Shown piece after piece: positions 43,289-64,000 of a DNA stretch of 64,000 nucleotides; positions within the stretch are counted from its first letter, which is position 1, and each line of letters begins with the position of its first letter. The notes below the pieces were generated by a model that saw only the letters and a list, made by a program, of their open reading frames with translations, was not told where the DNA came from and made no database searches. A program made the position numbers and the translations under genes. Source of the DNA: Plumapathes pennacea (lineage: Eukaryota > Cnidaria > Anthozoa > Antipatharia > Myriopathidae); NCBI GenBank assembly GCA_964036295.1, contig OZ038473.1, positions 13,406,501 to 13,470,500 of the forward strand. Direction: 5' to 3'.

Positions 43289-45966
43289 CTAGTTGTCATT
43301 TGTCTCAAACATATTCATAGCAATGGGCGTGAGATGATTATTCTTGGCAAACTGGTCAATATTAAATCCACAGCGGCTGTTTGGGTTTGACAATGAAAGT
43401 TTTCCCTCCTGCTCAAAGATAAAGACAAAGTACCGGTGCTTTCCGCTGCCCTTGGGAGGAGTTGGTGGCTTGTAATCTGAAAAAGGAGGTGAACAAATAT
43501 ATAAAGTCCTGCCTTCAAATAGTATTTTATGGTTATGATATTATTTTGTGCACATGGTGCATGGGCACTTTCTACGATCTAGAAAAGAGATAGACAAACA
43601 GAAACAAACATCATGTGCATGGTTATATCTCATGACAGCACACAGTCCAATATTTTGTAAAAGAAGCCCCTACTCAAGACGCCATGCCCAGAAGCCAGGA
43701 TATGATGACCCAGATTACGGGCCTGTTTAACACACTGAAGCATACAATTTTATATACCCTGTTTAACACACTAAAACATACAATTTTATATACCCTGTTT
43801 AACACACTAAAACATACAATTTTATATACCCTGTTTAACACACTAAAGCATACAATTTTATATACCCTGTTTAACACACTAAAACATACAATTTTATATA
43901 CCCTGTTTAACACACTAAAGCATACAATTTTATATACCCTGTTTAACACACTAAAGCATACAATTTTATATACCCTGTTTAACACACTAAAACATACAAT
44001 TTTATATACCCTGTTTAACACACTAAAGCATACAATTTTATATACCCTGTTTAACACACTAAAGCATACAATTTTATATACCCTGTTTAACACACTAAAG
44101 CATACAATTTTATATACCCTGTTTAACACACTAAAGCATACAATTTTATATACCCTGTTTAACACACTAAAGCATACAATTTTATATACCCTGTTTAACA
44201 CACTAAAGCATACAATTTTATATACCCTGTTTAACACACTAAAGCATACAATTTTATATACCCTGTTTAAGACAGAGGACACTGAAAACCATGCCCTATC
44301 CAGTGGCAAACCCCCATTTGGCAAATAAAGGGAAGTACCCCCCTTGGTTACCTCAAGTGGGAAACAATATTGACAGGCTTGATCCTCACCAGTATACTTA
44401 CCAGTTACAGTGTCTCCATCAAACTTTCCACTGGCAAGGTCAGTTCCCTTTAGATAAAAACAAGTAAAACTTAATTTTAGAATTCTAATGATGAACTATA
44501 TTTGCCTCAATCGAAAAATACAGCTCACTTTTTTTCCAGAAAACAATAAAAATAAAGCAAAACATCTGCACAAAAAATGTACTTGTCTTGAACAACAGGC
44601 TCCATACAGTTTTCAGCATCAATATAAATATACCACATCCAGGAGGGCCAAAGCGAACACATCACAAACTAATACTGCTGATTGCTTTTTCTAAAAATAG
44701 AACCTAACAGAAATTATTTTGACTTCTTGATTGGTTGAGTGTTTCTCATAGCCTCTGCGATTGGTGGTTATAGGAACATTATGATGGCTTTAGTTTACAA
44801 AATTCACATGAAAGTTGCTCAAAAAAATTTATTGTTTAAATGGTAATCAACAGACCATGTGAATGTGCAAAATTTTAGAGAAAGATAGCATGAGTGAACA
44901 AAACAATACACTATACCGGCAGATCCTCCTGGATGAAATGGAGCCAGCTTCGGCATTGAGGGGCATCAGGGCTTGGAGCATCTGGATCAACCATGGCAAT
45001 CAAGTATAATTTGTCCTGTTGACAGAACAATACAGCAAAGTTAAGCTTGTATATTTTTGGGGGGGTCAACGTATATCACAACCCCAAGACGTTTTTCTAC
45101 TATCTACATTTTGTTGGGCTCTGTAGGTTTTTCAAGTAGGTTAGTGTTAGAAGACTCTGCATTTAGATATTAAACAAAAATAACCCAATTTGTATGCCAA
45201 TGACTCTTTCTTTCACACAGCTAAAACTAGCTGCCACAATTTTTAGTTTATCAAAATAATAAAAAATATAACATACTACTGTTACTACAACTACAACTAA
45301 TATTATTATATAATTTATTATATCCCTACGTCAGGTGATGCTGACTTGACAGTCATATGGTTTTCTTTAGGACCTTTTAATCTATTTTTCTTGGCTTGCA
45401 AATATGTATTCAATAATTGATGTGTGGTAAATTTGCAAAGAAACTAAGAGGGTCTAAAAAGAATAAATCTGTATAAATTATTCTCAAACGCACGTTACAA
45501 AATGGAATAGAAAAATAATACGTTTTGTACCTGCGCGTACAAATTATTATTATTATTAAATTATTAATATAATGCGTGCATCTGACAATATGATCGCTTT
45601 TCTAAAAGAGCAACCGAGGCAGTGCTTGCTCTTTACAAAGTCTCGTTGTATCCAGGCGACACGCGCTCGGACCCTACTTGAAAATATTTCAAACTTCAAG
45701 AAAAAGACCCTGTAACCCTGTCAAAAAAAAACCATATTAAACATCTTATCAAAAACAAATTTTACCTTTTTGGCTCCCTCAAAAGTCACGATGCTCGAAG
45801 GTGCATTGATTTTATCAAGGGTGTAATAATTGCCACATTCAACTTCTGTTGACCCAATTTGAAGCTTTGCATTCTCCAAATCTTTACACGAAGATTCAAT
45901 CAGAGAAGTCGATGCTGCTACAACAAAAAGGTCGAACAATACGAGCAAAACATTTGACCACTTCAT
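43289..45966 (-). CDS. Secreted phosphatidylethanolamine-binding protein (PEBP/RKIP family)
   Basis: Four minus-strand exons, 45766..45966, 44917..45015, 44402..44447 and 43289..43476 (534 nt), give 177 residues. The N-terminus is a signal peptide (KWSNVLLVLFDLFVVAAST). The PEBP signature MVDPDAPSPDAP follows at about residue 75, then the second signature GSGKHRYFVFIFEQ preceded by YKPPTPP, as in the conserved CR1 and CR2 motifs that form the anion or phospholipid pocket. Junction phases are 0, 0 and 1, and splice sites are AAAAG|gtaaaa, caacag|GA, GCCG|gtatag, ctaaag|GG, ACTG|gtaagt and tttcag|AT. The ATG at 45966 was preferred because no upstream ATG is in frame. A signal peptide marks this as an extracellular PEBP rather than cytosolic RKIP. 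The ligand is unknown. Confidence 0.93.
43722..44270. repeat. 36-bp minisatellite, about 15 copies
   Basis: The unit reads 'cctgtttaacacactaaa(a/g)catacaattttatata' (36 bp), with almost only an A/G change between copies. It lies in the last PEBP intron. Because 36 is a multiple of three and the unit has no stop in one frame of each strand, it makes long artefact frames on both strands. Confidence 0.97.
45016..45765 (-). other. First PEBP intron
   Basis: AT-rich intron with ATT microsatellite stretches near 45290 and 45545. Nothing else is recognisable. Confidence 0.8.
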
Positions 45967-55674: not shown

Positions 55675-58600
55675 TCAGCATAGTCTAGGATTTCCAGTGT
55701 CTCTAGCGGTACATGTCATCATCGGAACGGCGGTACTGTGAAGGCCTCTTGCTGATCACGCAAGGTAAAAGAAAACGAGAAAAGGAGAAAAGGAATTTTA
55801 GAGAATGAGAAAAGAGACTGGCGCCGAGTCTCAGGTCCTCCAAGGGGAGGGGGTAGGTGAGGAAAAAACCATACTTTGGGGGGAGGGGAGGCGAGGCTAT
55901 ACCACATACCTGATAGGATCCTTTCCCAGAGATCTTTGCACTGCTCCTCCCAAGAATACTTCTTGTTATAGTTTTCACGCAGTTGGTTCGCCTCTGTTAA
56001 CCGCAAATTTCTCTCCTTCTCCTTCACAGCCAGGATACGTTTCTTCCACTCCTCTGGGTTATCAGAGTTAACTATGAATGCGCCACTATTGGTCACACGC
56101 CACAGTGCATCTCCAAGCCCTGTAGTGGAGGACACAAGGACGGGGAGCCCTGCTGAGATGGCTTGCAGCGCGACAAGACCAAAATCTTCCGATTTGGAGG
56201 GCAGGAAGGGAAGGATCAGCAGATCTACCTCAGTAAGGAGTCTGCGACAACTTTCAATGTTTGGACAGTGGCTCCGCACTATTAGTTGGCTGGGGGTGAT
56301 TCCTTGCTTGTAAAGGATCTCTTTCAACTCCTCAGGTTCGCTGTGAGGGGAACAGCGAGCAAAGAGCCTGAACTTGTACCTGCCGTCAGGTAACAAACCA
56401 ACTGCTTTGGCTGGAATCTCATAGATCTTTTTGCTTGCTGATGCTTCATCCAAGGGTGGGTAAAATGCGAGTACAGAGAAAGTTTTCCCTTCAGTGGGCC
56501 CTTGTTTGCAAACTTGGAGCTCCTCAAATATGCCAGGAATAAATTCAGAAACTTTTTTCTGAATTAGTCGAAGTTTTCGAGCACAGGCCTCGGCCACGTT
56601 GCTCCCAAGGCCAACTGCTACATTTGAACTTTCACAAAGATTAGTTTCCTCGTCAACGTTTTCCTCGGAAGAAGAGCAAGAGATGTGAGTCCACGAGCAC
56701 TTGCACCAGTTCTTCACGGTCCGTGCAAGTGGTCCAATAGCCTTCCCACAACTAACGACCACGTCAACATCACGAACGTCATCTGGTAGGCAAGACAAAT
56801 CTTTGTGAGGAGCTCGAACCAGGTCAATCCCATCCTTCCTAGCTTGATCTTGCTGGTCCTTAGCGGATTCAATCACCAGAAAGGTAGCCCGCACCTTGTC
56901 AATCGTTGCGAAATGTTTCGCTATTTCTGTGGTGACTTGTGAAAGTCCGCTCTCCTCAGACCAGCCCCATGTTTGGCCCAACATGATAACGTGCTTACTA
57001 TTACTTTGTGCTGGTTGAACAGAGGAGTTTTCTTGGCTTGCACTGGCTTGGTGTTGAGGCAAAACAACTTGAGATGCCTAAACAGTAAGAATATATCAGT
57101 AACGATATTAGTAGAGAGCAAAAAACATCGCACAACAAGTAAGAAATGTGTATTCACGATTAAGACACTCTTTCTCCAACGAAAACTCGCTCGAAATTTC
57201 GTTCTGCTCAACAAAACTTCGCTCGAAAATTCGCGCTGCAAACAATAGGCGCTTTGAAATTTCGCCGAAAGTTCGCTTGGAGCGATACTTCGCCTATTTT
57301 CGCCGAATTTCGCTGTCATTACTTTTGCCTGACGCTTCATACCATCATTACCTCTAAGCTTGTTTGGCTTGCTCCTACTTGGCTTGAAGACAAAACAACG
57401 TCACTGGGTTCAGATGCCTAACATAGTAAGGAAAAGAAGAAAGAATGTTTTACAAATGTATTTACGAACAGCACACGGACATACATCTAACAGCATGCTT
57501 AGTTGGCAGTTGCTTGGCTTGGGAGCAAGATAGTTCCTCACCTTGTCAATATTTGCGAACTGTTTCGCCGTTTCTGTGGTGACTTGTGAAAGTCCGCTCA
57601 CCTCAGACCAACCCCGTTTTTGGCCCGACAACAGAACGTGCTTACTACTTCGTGCTGGCTGAGCAGAGGAGTTTGCTTGACTTGCACTGGCTTGGTGTTG
57701 AGGCAAAACAACTTGAGGTGCCTAAACAGTAAGAATATACCAGTAACGATATTAATAGAGAGCAAAAGACATCGCACAACAAGTAAAAAATGTGTTCACG
57801 ATTAAGACACTCTCTCCAACAAAAATTCGCTCAAATCTTCGTTCTGCTCAACGAAACTTCGCTAGAAAATTCCGCTGCAAACAATAGGCGCTTTGAAATT
57901 TCGCCGAAAGTTCGCTTGGAGCGATACTTCACATATTTTCGCCGAATTTCGCTGTCATTACTTTTGCCTGATGATTCATACCATCATTACCTCTAAACTT
58001 GTTTGGCTTGCTCCTGCTTGGCTTGAAGACAAAACAACGTCACTGGGTTCAGATGCCTAACATAGTAAGGAAAAGAAGAAAGAATGTTTTACGAATGCAT
58101 TTACGAACAGCACACGGACACTATGTATCTAACAGCATGCTTAGTTGGCAGTTGCTTGGCGGGAGCAAGATAACTTTATTAAATAGAGACGCCTAAGCAG
58201 AGTACACACTCGATATTATCTTCGCCGTGAATTTATAAGCTTCTTCTTAACAAACCTCTGACGAGTGTGACGTTAACGCCGTCATGCTGGGTCAGCGTTT
58301 GAAGCGATGAAATTTAATGTATTGGAAAATTCATCAGATAACTTGCTATTCCATAAAGGTTGTCAAATTACAGTTTGCGGTTACACGTCCGTTAAACTGT
58401 GTCCAGTATGGCTAGTACGTTTGTTAGTTTGTAACGTGACAATAGTAGCAAAAGTTTATCGCGTGACATGTAACGCGGTTCACTGTTCAGGCTCAAAAAT
58501 ACTCCTTCTGACGCACTAGCCTTGGGCTAGCAGATCACGTACAGTAGTGTGGTAGGCCGGACTCAGGAAACTCTAGTGATTGAACGTAACAGTTACATTC

Positions 58601-61600
58601 TCATCATAATTCTTTAATCAACTGCATATGCCTTTTTTTTTCTGTTGATGTGTAAAGTTGTTAACTAGCTTGTGCAACTTAAGGAAACTGAATTATCTTT
58701 TTTATGTATATTTGTACACAGAAAGTTGAACATTTTAAAGAAAAATATTACTTTTTCAACGAATGAGGAAATTGAATAAAAGATAAAGTCTGCTTGCCCG
58801 TTGTCAGATTTTGCCAGCCCCGCATTGTAGCAGAGTGAAAGCAGCTGAAATGACACTGGTACACACCTTGCTCTCTAGAGCTTGAAACCACGGAGTGAAC
58901 GGCTCTTTGGAAGAAGATGTGTGCATGGCATCACCGGACTTACAACAAACCAGAGGTTTATGGTCACGGACAAGCTCATCCTCTGGTATGTAGTGGACAC
59001 ACTGGTCCTGTTTACAACCAGCGACTTGGTGTCGATCACAGACACTGCTTCGGACTCCGCCCTTTGAACACACCGGGCACTGGACACAGATGATGTATCG
59101 CATGAATTTCAACCAGACATGTTCCTCCTGCATCGCTTCTAGTGTTTGCTTTAAAAAACCAATCACGGCGCGGCAGAACTTTGTCAGCTCCCTAAGGTTA
59201 GAACAAAAAAAACACAAAAATATGCCGCTTTAGTTCAATCAAAGCAATAAAGATAAACAATCAACTTCGATAGTGTCACATTAAAAGAAACTCTAACGCT
59301 TCATATAACCTGAGTACATTTACTTAATAGAATAGCTTTGCTCTGGTCCTGGCTCAGCATTGTGGTGTCGGAACATTGAAATTGGGAAACCGTTTCTCTG
59401 GGCAAACGAAAGACAGTCAACAGGAATGGCATCTCAACATCTTTACTATATATGTTGCTGTGTGCTCTTCACGTATAAATTCAAAAGGAGACCTAGAAAA
59501 ATCCTAGCTGTTTCGTTTAGTTTGCTTATTTGTTTGTTGTTGTTCTGCGTAACTTCTTTGGCAGAAAAGGCAATTTAATTGTGAACTTTTCCAAGTTAGT
59601 TTTTATCAAGCTTTGAGACAAAGCTGAAGCTTGATATGACATGCGTAACTTATTAATAACATACACTGTGTATCTAAATATGAGAATTGCAGACGTTTAT
59701 GGATCGGCACCTTTTGTGATTCAGAAGCTCTTCGTAGCACATAGAAACTGTTTCTCCCCGAACCACACTGAAGGCGACCACATTCATTCTGCTGGCCAGG
59801 ATCACCTGGTAAGTTCCACTGGCGCCTAAAAAGAAGCGTGCATAGTTCCTATAAAACTGGGGCTGCTCCCTGACGGTCCATTTCTCTGCGCACCAGTTCA
59901 CACAGCGGGTGACCAGGCGTGGAAAGAGTCCAAAGGGAACGTACATGCACTCGTCTGGAAACCGTACAACAAGAGCAGGAACCTCAGCTGATGCAATCAA
60001 CCCCAGGACTTTCGAATCTGCGGCAGTCATGAGCATGGAAGGCACCAAATACACCTGAATGGCAAATAATATTATAGAAAGTTCTTAAAACCAGTACACA
60101 TACATACAAATTTTCCAGGAGGAACAAAGGCGCAAAGTATAGTATTATCGTACCTCTGACCCATCTAGTTTGGTCCAGCGACAGGCCAGGCTGAACTTCT
60201 GAAGAAGCTGCAGAAGGCCAGTGATCTCCTCTTTTGGAATAAGGTCCTTCCACACGTGTTCCACCAATTCACGATTCAGCACGCCTCGTGTTTCCAAGGC
60301 CTTCCAATGTGGTCGGAATGATGGCTTTTGACTTGGCCGTGGCTGTACAGTGATAATTTTCTTGAAAATATCGATGAGCCACTGATGATTCAGCACCACA
60401 AGTTGGTCCAGTTCTGGCGTGTCACTGAAGTGAAGCACTGCATGACGGTCATGCAAGTAAGTTATCACAACTCTGAATTCGTTCTCATCTTGTATGTCAC
60501 ATTCCTCTTTTGCTGTGGATTTGGCCCTGTCAAGGCTCGTGTGGTTTGTACCATCAGCCTGAAAGCTCTTCAGGAGCTTTTCGAGGAGAAACCATCTGCA
60601 GCATAGCCCATATTACATGATTTATATAAATTATCAAGTGAGCTCGTGACATGCTTTCTTAATAGTATTCAATAGAGAGCGAAACAGCTTGGAAATATGA
60701 GTACAGTGCAGTACGAGTTCTTAATTTTTCAAACTGCGCAAATTAAAGATTAATTTGGCCACTTTTACAAAGGGTTTTACCCTAGGAAAACACTCTTCGA
60801 CGTGTAACGTGCCCATTGAATTGTGTTAAACAAAAAAACATAAGTCATTTTCGGTGTGATACCCTTAAATGTTCAAAAGGTCCAAAAATAGACTTACTTT
60901 AGGGGAATGAGCTCCTTCATATGAGGCAGTAGATACGCCGCTTTCAGGAGTTTGTCCCGCAGTCTCTTGAACACTTCATCTTCGCCCTCCTGACTTCCTG
61001 ACTTGGTGTTGTCCACTGTGAACGGATCCTGCTCCTGCACCACGTGGTCTTCATAAGACTTTCCCTCCAGGTTAGACAATATCTCCATAGCAACTTCTCT
61101 GGAGTTCTTGCACTCGTCAGCATGAGTACACACGAGAAAAACTGCGGGAAGCTTTGAAGGAAGATCTTCTGATTCACTGCTTGATGACTGTGAATCAGAA
61201 CTGAACGCGTGGATAGAGGAGAGCCAGTAGTGGATGTAATCCATGTTTGTCAGTTCGCACTCTTTGTCTGTCAACACACGTTCATACGCATCATGATTCA
61301 CTCTGGGCTCTGCTTTTGCATGCAAATCTCTGCTGAGGTCATGGGTCAATATATAGATGGCTATTCTTGACATAAACAGGACGTGGGTGGTGTAAAACAC
61401 TGACTGGCCAGCAAAGTCCCACAAGACAAATTCTGGGCCTTCATCTTTTTCCGGATTTTCCAATTCAGGGTTAAGTAGCTCCCTTACAACTTCTTTTGGC
61501 AATGCCGCGTCTGTCCCTGGTTTGGTTTGTGGAAATACGGAATCGCTCTCTGGTTTACTTTGTGGAAATGTGGAGTCTCTCGGACCTGATTTTATCGCTG

Positions 61601-62569
61601 TTAACGTGGGGTCTCCCCCCGGGGTATTCTGTCTTTTGCATTGTGGATCAGGGCGCGCGTTTGTGTTGCCAGTCAGGGTTCTAGTGGCTACTTTGTTGTC
61701 CTTCACGTCACTCTTATTCCATTGTTGTTCCTGCGTATTCTCGTGGGACTGTCCCCCTGTTAAGTTTTTTCGCATAAGCCTGGCAGCATCACGATCAAAC
61801 TTTACATCAGTGAATTCCACACGTTCTTTAGGTCTCCAAACTTCAGTTGTTAACTTACACAGCGATGGATCAACATCGATTCCAATTGTACTATTTTCAC
61901 CTGGAACAAACTTTTCTCCCTTTAAGGATTTTTTTAAGCTTGTCTTACCAGATCTGTCCTGACCAACAATCATGACTGGTACACGGCAGTCGCGCGTTTT
62001 CCCATTTTCCAGGGCTTTTTCATAAGCCCTGAGAGCTTCAAGCCCACGAGCCAGAATCTCGATAGGAACTGTGTAATGCAAGAAATTCAAAACCAGTTAT
62101 ACAAACATGTTCATTCCTGATTTGATGCATCGATTAATCTATCAGTGATGAGAAATTCAGACACGTTTTTTGTGACTATCGTGATTCTTCACGCAAAAGA
62201 TAATTCGCAAAGACAAAAAAGGTAAATAAATGCTACACAATGAAATGAACCTCTCACATTCTGGTGTTTTCATTTCGACAAATGGTGCGACGTCATGATC
62301 GTCAATGTATGTGAAACCTTGTGTCTCATAGCAAAACGACGAAGATCGTTTTAGGCGTCAAAACAATGTTTCTCTTTTTTCCTTTTTTTTGTTAATCATT
62401 AAGCCTACATTTTCCATACTTTCATGCACTCAAACAATATGTCAACAGTACAGTATAGAATGAACACAAGCAAACTTTATGTAAGATGAACAATTTCTTA
62501 TCGCTATCAAGACCACTACACAACAATTACCTGTCGATTTTTCCGATGAAAGACCATCCTCAATATTTC
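55675..62569 (-). CDS. ROCO protein: Roc GTPase-COR-Cys-rich-glycosyltransferase-like fusion (5' end not found)
   Basis: Minus-strand exons: 62531..62569, 60898..62068, 60154..60595, 59711..60054, 58867..59191, 57991..58056, 57542..57721, 57352..57417, 55910..57077 and a tentative last exon 55675..55751. All phases agree, giving about 1290 residues. Roc has P-loop GQDRSGKTS (about 61940..61966), WDFAGQ (about 61400..61420) and CTHAD (about 61120). A ~100-residue Ser/Thr/Pro-rich insert lies between the first two. COR begins LIPLKWFLLEKLLKS. Then come a Cys/His-rich module (CVQCPVC, CDRH, CKQDQC, CCKSG), four linker exons and a GT-B domain. ROCO GTPases such as LRRK2 couple a switch to an effector. 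Exon 62531..62569 enters in phase 1, so a coding exon lies further right, perhaps outside the window. The main doubt is whether exon 58867..59191 always splices on; unspliced, it stops at 58804. Confidence 0.8.
55910..57077 (-). other. GT-B (GT4-like) glycosyltransferase domain exon of the ROCO gene
   Basis: This exon encodes 389 residues. The first ~22 (ASQVVLPQHQ...) are linker. A Rossmann-like start follows (KHVIMLGQTWGWSEESG), then a central GLGSNVAEACARKLRLI and the C-terminal nucleotide-sugar half (SEDFGLVALQAISAGLPVLV). The family signature EX7E reads E-DFGLVAL-Q, so the second Glu (about residue 305 of the exon) is Gln. The exon is preceded directly by an in-frame TAG of its acceptor and has no Met before its first strand. 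It therefore needs an upstream coding exon. Activity and sugar donor are unknown. Confidence 0.8.
57070..58165 (-). repeat. Tandem ~645-bp duplication carrying linker exons
   Basis: 57070..57520 and 57715..58165 are nearly identical, including intron sequence. Exon 57352..57417 (66 bp) duplicates 57991..58056. Exon 57542..57721 (180 bp) duplicates the first part of exon 55910..57077. All four exons start after an acceptor TAG|GC and are phase 0 at that end. A decayed further copy of the same exon type (ASLFNKVILLPPS) lies near 58130..58190. Confidence 0.85.
58166..58866 (-). other. ROCO gene intron after the Cys-rich exon
   Basis: AT-rich, no additional exon resolved. A decayed linker-exon-like segment lies at its left edge. 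If the intron is retained, translation stops at 58804. Confidence 0.6.
59192..59710 (-). other. ROCO gene intron
   Basis: AT-rich intron between a COR exon and the Cys-rich exon. The plus-strand frame at 59360..59578 looks hydrophobic by composition only and is not supported as a gene. Confidence 0.7.
62069..62530 (-). other. ROCO gene intron upstream of the Roc exon
   Basis: Bounded by CGACAG|gtaatt and gcattacacag|TT. Nothing else is recognisable. Confidence 0.8.
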
Positions 62570-64000
62570 CTGGGGGAAAACGACGCTGAAATCATAGCAC
62601 ACAAAAGGCTGTATTTGAATGCTACAAACAGTTAAGAACAGAACTAATATTCAAGAGCAGAACTAATTCCTCCCTGACTGGCCATGTTACATTAATGCCA
62701 GAATTCCAAGCCTGTGGTGTGTCGGAGCGAATTGAGACCGTAACAAGTACTGTTCCCTTTAGAGACTACTAGTTTGTTAATAACTTTTACGTCCTTAGTA
62801 TTGTCTTTAATACAGAAACACATCACGGAGATACTCTGGTTGGATAAGGTAGTGCGATCACGCAACTTCCACTGTATAACTTCTCCTTTATTTCGGTACG
62901 AAAACTCTTTTTGTATTCCAGATTCGAATATATAGATAAATCAAAGCAGCGTCGCCGCTGAAAGGTCGCCCATTTCTTGTCAATCGATAGGTTTCGTCGC
63001 ACTTGCTAGCTCGGGTATACTTTTCTACTATTTAATGAGGCAGAGACAAATTCGATAATTGTTTGCAAAAGTTAGTTTGGGATGAGTATTGCTATATAAC
63101 AATGAAAGAATTTTTTCGAATATTTTTTAAAAAAGACTGAAAACAGCAAATCAAAGCAGCAAGGCAGCTCTAAGCTCGCGAATTTGTGAAAGTTACTTTT
63201 GCGGCTTCAGGTCGCATTTTATAATCTTAGTGCTCTGAACCGTGACGGGACTTCCCGAGCCAGCAAACAAAAAAAGATCTATCCGTGACTTTATTTATCA
63301 GAGACCATGATATTCCAGCCTGGGCTGCATCCAAACTAAATACGTGCGCAATAAAAACTATGCCTTTCTTCTTTTGGCTGAGTTTCAAGTTAAATAAATT
63401 TTAGGGAAATCTGATACACTTAACTTGTTGACAACTGTACTTGCGGTTTTGGTCAATCATATTCCCTTTTGAATTCTTCTTCCAGTATCCAGTATCATGC
63501 ACAGCTAGTATTTAACACCTACAAATTTATCAGAAGCCATGATACTACGCCTGGGCTGCATCCAAACTAAATACACATTGAGAGAAAACTGTGCCGTTCT
63601 TCTTTTGGCTGAGTTTCAAGTTCAAGGACATGACTTGCGGTTTCGGTCACGCATTATTCTTCTTTCATTTGTGTACAGTTTTTATTGCTGTGGAATATGA
63701 CAATTTGAACAAGTGACAGCGACGTTGTTTCCTTTTTTCCAAGAATCTTCGATGTTTGCGTAAAAGAATATGCGACGGTTCTCTGGTCGAGTCGCTTCTG
63801 AATATAAATCGACTTTATTTACCCTTACCACTCCGTTTAAATAGTAACGCGAGCGTTCGTCAAACATTTCAAGTTCACAAGCTGCTGTTGCACCCTCATT
63901 CAGTGGCTGGTTTTCGTTTAAAAGCAACGAAATGGCTGCACTTCATGATAACAGTATAGCCATGCAGTTTGACTATTAATTTCAGTGTCTTCAGCGTCAA
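62570..64000. other. Unresolved 5' region of the ROCO gene with a local duplication
   Basis: A direct repeat pairs 63289..63471 with 63529..63661 ('gcctgggctgcatccaaactaaata', 'ttcttcttttggctgagtttcaagtt'). I could not find a convincing exon ending in phase 1. The minus-strand frame at 63682..63927 has no ATG and no known domain. Confidence 0.55.

Follow-up and report, generated by a model that had tools for sequence, protein, structure and literature searches.

A ROCO GTPase that may carry a degenerate glycosyltransferase-fold domain in the anthozoan Plumapathes pennacea

Does the Roc-COR GTPase gene found in a stretch of Plumapathes pennacea DNA run on into the glycosyltransferase (GT)-fold exons that lie downstream of it, and if so, what would such a domain do behind a GTPase? 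The stretch (GenBank assembly GCA_964036295.1, contig OZ038473.1, positions 13,406,501 to 13,470,500 of the forward strand) is 64,000 nt long and is called the window here; all coordinates are positions within it, and the exon chain in question lies on its minus strand. Roc-COR is a GTP-driven switch, ROCO proteins have been studied mainly through LRRK2, and what the switch reads and drives is debated. The reading that we prefer, and hold with about even confidence, is that the locus is one anthozoan gene for a ROCO protein with a C-terminal GT4-conflict domain, which would have kept its GT-B fold, lost most of its catalytic residues and most likely act by binding.

Between 62.6 and 55.9 kb we identified nine exons, all with GT-dinucleotide donors and AG acceptors, that join into one stop-free frame. 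Proteins from the searches are given by their P numbers.

62531..62569, minus strand: exon x0, a possible upstream 39-nt exon (NIEDGLSSEKST), called from high-scoring splice sites alone and in phase with the Roc exon.
60898..62068, minus strand: exon A, the Roc GTPase domain (Pfam Roc, 1.2e-13; tblastn 41% identity to P0036, E 1.9e-71).
60154..60595, minus strand: exon B, COR-A (Pfam COR-A, 4e-18).
59711..60054, minus strand: exon C, the rest of COR, the COR-B region by position (tblastn with P0088 over exon B and most of exon C, E 2.7e-56).
58867..59191, minus strand: exon D, the Cys/His module with conserved Cys/His residues and a phase-0 donor, AAG/GTGTGT (tblastn 41% to P0013, E 5.4e-19).
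57991..58056, minus strand: S1, a small linker exon (ASEPSDVVLSSSQAGASQTSLE), phase 0-0, called from its splice sites and identical to S2 at 64 of 66 bases.
57602..57721, minus strand: exon G1, a shortened duplicate of the linker and GT-domain start, called from a tandem duplication and its splice sites.
57352..57417, minus strand: S2, a small linker exon near-identical to S1, called from its splice sites.
55910..57077, minus strand: exon G2, a Ser/Gln-rich linker and a GT-B domain of the GT4-conflict family (Pfam PF20706) with a degenerate active site.

The initial annotation of this locus had described Roc motifs, COR, a Cys/His module and a GT-B domain in consecutive, phase-compatible exons on one strand, and Pfam, tblastn, the splice sites and the open frame bear this out. 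In the Pfam profile search, Roc, COR-A and GT4-conflict all scored above their curated cut-offs (51.8 bits against 27, 66.1 against 35.3 and 124.4 against 26, respectively), the last with E 7.4e-36 over profile positions 8-385 of 385. The G1, G3 and G4 motifs of Roc (GQDRSGKT, DFAG and THAD) all lie in exon A, with a long insert before DFAG, and resemble near-invariant columns of the ROCO relatives; COR follows Roc directly, the two above-cut-off Pfam matches falling in consecutive exons. Exons C and D had no Pfam match, and tblastn with ROCO relatives covers most of both. Across 25 aligned sequences, one of them from the window, eight Cys/His positions of the exon D module are identical in 24 or all 25. 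The predicted structure of the module (mean predicted local distance difference test 74.0; predicted template modelling score, pTM, 0.57) matched four PDB entries, none better than E 4.9, and could not be assigned to a known fold. The joined model is 1246 amino acids long with S1, G1, S2 and G2, and 1184 with S2 and G2 only. For exon x0 no homology support was found, nor was a start codon of the gene found within the window, and the gene start may lie beyond window position 64000. Splice scores throughout come from generic rather than species-specific matrices.

We then asked whether exon D is an internal exon. A search with the ROCO core (residues 1-800 of the joined model) gave 889 relatives at E 1e-3, and the figures that follow are from the best 120 of these 889. 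Among the 120, a pattern anchor could be set in 105, at the [PAVLS]W[FLI] motif that follows the Cys/His module; many relatives are near-identical, and counting their 52 distinct tails is more meaningful. Seven residues past the anchor stands a Val in 96 of these 105 sequences and in 44 of the distinct tails, and the residue just before it is Gln, Lys or Glu in 101 of the 105. All but two of the 96 Val-bearing relatives end 40 residues or fewer from the anchor (94 in number; P0093 ends at 41 and P0129 at 66). By eye, 12 of the 15 unanchored relatives have Val at the same offset, and P0068, P0083 and P0123 have it elsewhere. Since Val is encoded by GTN and the codons CAG, AAG and GAG end in G, the tails of the relatives show the pattern expected of read-through at a phase-0 donor. 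P0080, P0102 and P0115 diverge at exactly the residue where exon D ends and continue for ~180 further residues. The window sequence at this place reads PWF-QALESK/V, with the donor AAG/GTGTGT scoring 9.1, at the 99.7th percentile of all GT dinucleotides on the same strand. On the strength of a Val at a fixed place in the relatives and a strong donor in the window, we take exon D to be probably internal and the stop at 58804 to be probably intronic.

Downstream of exon D, a scored donor is first reached in phase from the S1 acceptor (6.9); two weaker acceptors between D and S1, at 58192 (5.8) and 58154 (5.6), lead to none. A Death-type tail was not recognised downstream in the window (best tblastn E 0.37; 0.55 on the minus strand), and the GT domain is the sole coding sequence recognised downstream of exon D on the minus strand. 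Because the exon D donor stands at a conserved place, because no other downstream coding was recognised and because the phases match, we infer that the DNA is best read as encoding one ROCO-GT protein. The in-frame TAG before the GT-side exons, which the initial annotation took to bar an independent gene, is uninformative here: it is the acceptor's own TAG in front of a phase-0 exon.

The searches for relatives of the GT part and for a fusion bear on the same question. With the GT part we recovered nine relatives (P0001-P0009) of the same GT4-conflict family at 32-37% identity. Scoring in this search was limited to the 7992 candidates with the most words in common, and its nine hits compare with over 500 reported coral paralogues, so that it may have overlooked a fusion whose GT has diverged. 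A GT4 domain begins a few dozen residues after the model's own Met in seven of the nine; ~290 residues precede it in P0002, and the P0009 model is truncated at the front. In P0001 a second GT4 domain, at 818-1196, stands far from the Met. An animal Roc-COR-GT4 protein was not found in three protein searches (with the GT part, the ROCO core and residues 640-1085), nor did the same architecture show among the nine GT relatives or the best 120 of 889 ROCO relatives. Prokaryote genome contigs scanned with the coral GT alignment gave 32 pattern matches, none of which was confirmed.

Several observations weigh against a single protein. The joining of ROCO and GT parts is a putative one, read from the DNA of the window and the protein tails of the relatives. 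Neither Roc nor COR appears in the Pfam lists of any of the nine GT relatives, in most of which, as noted, GT4 lies close to the Met, and PF20706 is absent from the best 120 ROCO relatives. A search across the Cys/His module, the linker and the first GT half (residues 640-1085) returned none of 7182 candidates at E 1e-3, although it missed even the ROCO relatives and thus lacks the sensitivity to show absence. The named coral ROCO models P0116 and P0010 stop 26 and 43 residues past the anchor with no Death-type tail, and a ROCO protein can therefore finish close to the exon D border. At the other end, exon G2 closes at a strong donor, CAG/GTATGT at 55910, behind which no next exon was recognisable on the minus strand in 55910-55000, where several short terminal exons would be possible. 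Finally, between the copies of the duplication described below, nonsynonymous (dN) and synonymous (dS) divergence are 0.112 and 0.121, and no purifying selection is visible.

The main alternative is two adjacent genes. The ROCO gene would then end after the Cys/His module or in a short, unrecognised last exon, and a small GT4-conflict gene would stand apart from it, with a promoter and a first exon that belong to it alone between 58.8 and 58.06 kb. We regard this as less likely than one gene, and as the best placed of the alternatives. Besides the position of GT4 in its relatives and the ends of P0116 and P0010, it could draw on the weaker acceptors at 58192 and 58154, either of which could open a short last ROCO exon, and on polyadenylation-like motifs (ATTAAA at 58618 and 58318, AATAAA at 58180). 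However, of the two exons that these acceptors would open, one passes the AATAAA at 58180 and the other begins after it. An mRNA for the GT part alone, starting between 58.8 and 58.0 kb, had been named by the initial annotation as an opposing outcome, and a candidate first exon that joins S1 in phase does exist (MTALTSHSSE, 58285-58256); one as good turned up in 1339 of 2000 stretches of 800 nt taken at random from this strand, and we dropped the candidate as evidence. A separate gene would also consist of a degenerate GT4 domain without a recognised partner, and the conserved place of the exon D donor makes a stop at 58804 unexpected. As for that stop, which the initial annotation had named as a transcript end that would speak against the fusion, the Val pattern of the relatives points to an intronic position, whereas P0116 and P0010 do end nearby.

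The linker and the start of the GT domain lie in a tandem duplication.

57533..58172, minus strand: first copy of the 640-bp tandem duplication.
From 57532 to ~56890, minus strand: second copy of the 640-bp tandem duplication.

The 640-bp unit comprises an S exon and roughly 60 codons from the start of G; the initial annotation does not mention this duplication. The copies differ at 19 of 180 sites in the exon G stretch and at 19 of 385 in the introns (p 0.018). We did not adopt positive selection as the cause of the faster exon G divergence, as one of the copies may just be unconstrained. In G1 two donors score strongly, the alternative one ending the exon at 57542; G1 may serve as a longer linker or be skipped.

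What would the GT domain do in a ROCO protein? An active GT4 enzyme is marked by a catalytic His loop, a donor-binding Arg and Lys, and an E-x7-E motif. The window domain, for which a GT-B fold was predicted (pTM 0.76), has lost GHG, the histidine loop VHT (where the alignment shows a gap of 16 columns), the arginine of GRG and the second Glu of E-x7-E, all of which the coral relatives mostly keep. Its FGLVAL / SAGLPVLVS core is still there, and of the catalytic set only Lys217 and the first Glu remain. The four losses occur together in none of the eight relatives that are complete there (in P0009 only the last two sites could be compared). Single sites do vary among the coral relatives: the GRG Arg is replaced by His in P0008 and the first Glu by Asp in P0003 and P0004, and P0002 reads GELS instead of GGLS. 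A shift of a few residues could move His131 toward the VHT column, but P0001, which does have VHT, also carries a His at the earlier position. As the domain is without most of the conserved active-site residues, binding appears likelier than sugar transfer, and sugar sensing is possible.

The same losses could point to a relic: what the GT exons preserve would then be a fragment of a GT4 gene, lying behind the ROCO gene, that has decayed or died recently and is either unexpressed or read by chance. The shortened duplicate G1 and the lack of visible purifying selection between the copies would fit, as would the Pfam score of 124 bits against 271 (P0002) and 288 (P0007) in coral relatives with a single such domain. 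We nevertheless consider a relic improbable. The GT frame runs for 389 codons free of stops and is 32-37% identical to the nearest relatives recovered; an open frame this long has a chance of ~2e-11 at the window base composition, and the accompanying decay simulation counts stops and leaves indels aside. The splice sites are well formed on both sides, and the fold of the domain is predicted with the score given above. Least probable of all, and very doubtful, is the initial annotation's proposal of a single ROCO-GT protein that still transfers sugar under GTP control: the kept Lys217, first Glu and core, and the single-site variation in P0008, P0003, P0004 and P0002, could be read in its favor, but the joint loss of GHG, the VHT loop, the GRG Arg and the second Glu, unmatched in the complete relatives, and the weakened case for His131 as a VHT substitute leave transfer poorly supported.

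The named relatives from the ROCO and GT searches are stony corals (Acropora, Montipora, Porites and Oculina) at 32-40% identity, in keeping with an anthozoan source that has no close match in the database searched, and P0010 matches residues 1-800 of the joined model at 96% coverage and 35% identity. Beside Roc-COR, relatives that are named or long carry TPR repeats (P0081, P0116), Cullin (P0080, P0102) or kinase matches (P0115). Pfam Death scored above cut-off at the tail of P0081 and below it in P0102, and similar tails were seen by eye in P0080 and P0115. The coral ROCOs thus seem, from these protein comparisons, to exchange partners around a constant Roc-COR-Cys/His core, with the exon border fixed behind the core.

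The Cullin match stands before Roc-COR in Montipora P0102 (9.3e-29) and in the similar P0080, and the kinase matches of Oculina P0115 accompany the same core. As to the family at large, 112 of the best 120 ROCO relatives are 750-860 amino acids long, and ENA is the sole source of 111; many are near-identical. They make up a large family, perhaps derived from unannotated coral genome or metagenome assemblies.

In the one-gene reading, the GT4-conflict domain would take the place of the C-terminal tail, which is Death-type in some coral relatives. The resulting GT4 pseudoenzyme would bind, as a sensor of nucleotide sugar or glycan, as a decoy or as a scaffold. The GTP/GDP state of the Roc-COR dimer would set the exposure of the GT module or, alternatively, ligand binding at the GT domain would set GTP turnover. 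We put forward tentatively, and with clearly less confidence than the one-gene reading itself, that an animal ROCO protein swapped a Death-type tail for a GT-shaped pseudoenzyme, and that its GTPase switch controls, or is controlled by, the binding of nucleotide sugar, glycan or pathogen glycosylation machinery. If so, the partner exchange described for bacterial conflict proteins also occurs in animals, and the locus would offer a natural Roc-COR protein, kinase-free as far as seen, for studying the effect of the switch on its neighbor.

Elsewhere in the window, the neighbors with Pfam matches, at 241-54664, are ordinary animal genes and encode BTB-BACK and Kelch domains, a tropomyosin, a C2H2 zinc finger, a RING protein and a rhodopsin-type receptor. 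A 36-bp tandem repeat at 43722-44274 (15.4 copies, 98% matches) is open in a frame on both strands.

How does the putative protein compare with known systems? LRRK2, DAPK1 and MFHAS1 share with it a Roc-COR switch beside a variable partner, which in these proteins is a kinase, Death or LRR part; none of them is known to have a glycosyltransferase domain. Coral ROCOs with a Death-type tail (P0081 from Acropora, P0102 from Montipora, P0115 from Oculina, and P0080) are alike in Roc, COR and the Cys/His module at 34-38% identity. They differ in that tail and in N-terminal TPR, Cullin or kinase parts, and none has GT4. The coral GT4 or glycosyl transferase group 1 proteins with NACHT, NB-ARC or TRADD-like parts (P0001-P0009) resemble the window domain in family, but in seven of nine GT4 stands near the N-terminus, the active-site motifs are mostly kept, and the switch is a STAND NTPase or absent rather than Roc-COR. 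This group was reportedly described by Hamada in 2013, a study cited in PMC10236652 and PMC4083563.

Published passages place both parts in the setting of biological conflict. They report coral glycosyl transferase group 1 with NACHT/NB-ARC, TIR, LRR, TPR or ankyrin parts (PMC12314368, PMC10236652, PMC4083563), more than 500 paralogues of GT4 in the coral Acropora digitifera, and its association with TRADD-N in cnidarians, cephalochordates and hemichordates (PMC8195603). In bacteria, conflict systems are described as including glycosyltransferase domains and AP-GTPase-COR (PMC7159879), and a bacterial LRRK2 homologue as passing through a monomer-dimer transition during turnover (PMC5714945). 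The innate-immunity role suggested by the initial annotation would agree, by analogy, with these families, the coral NLR-type GT4 proteins and the bacterial Roc-COR conflict proteins. By title, abstract and passage, no animal Roc-COR-GT4 protein came up in the open-licence literature, and Fig. 6A of PMC8195603 may show one. The combination is less new than the initial annotation supposed: an animal case did not turn up in the protein and literature searches made here, but both parts, and the Roc-COR-GT4 order, are already known separately, from coral NLR-type GT4 proteins and bacterial conflict proteins.

A close likeness is to the prokaryotic AP-GTPase (Roc)-COR proteins with GT4 in the effector position, in which, as described in passages of PMC8195603, Roc and COR are followed by GT4 in the C-terminal variable position; the likeness is one of described domain order. 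Those proteins have N-terminal LRRs (PMC8195603). No LRR was recognised in the window, of which 62.6-64 kb had no LRR scan, and the 5' end of the gene may lie beyond it. The window gene differs from them by its introns, by the Cys/His module between COR and GT and by the degenerate GT active site. If the pseudoenzyme reading is right, it would be an animal counterpart of the bacterial Roc-COR-GT4 conflict proteins, in which an enzyme has turned into a receptor or decoy.
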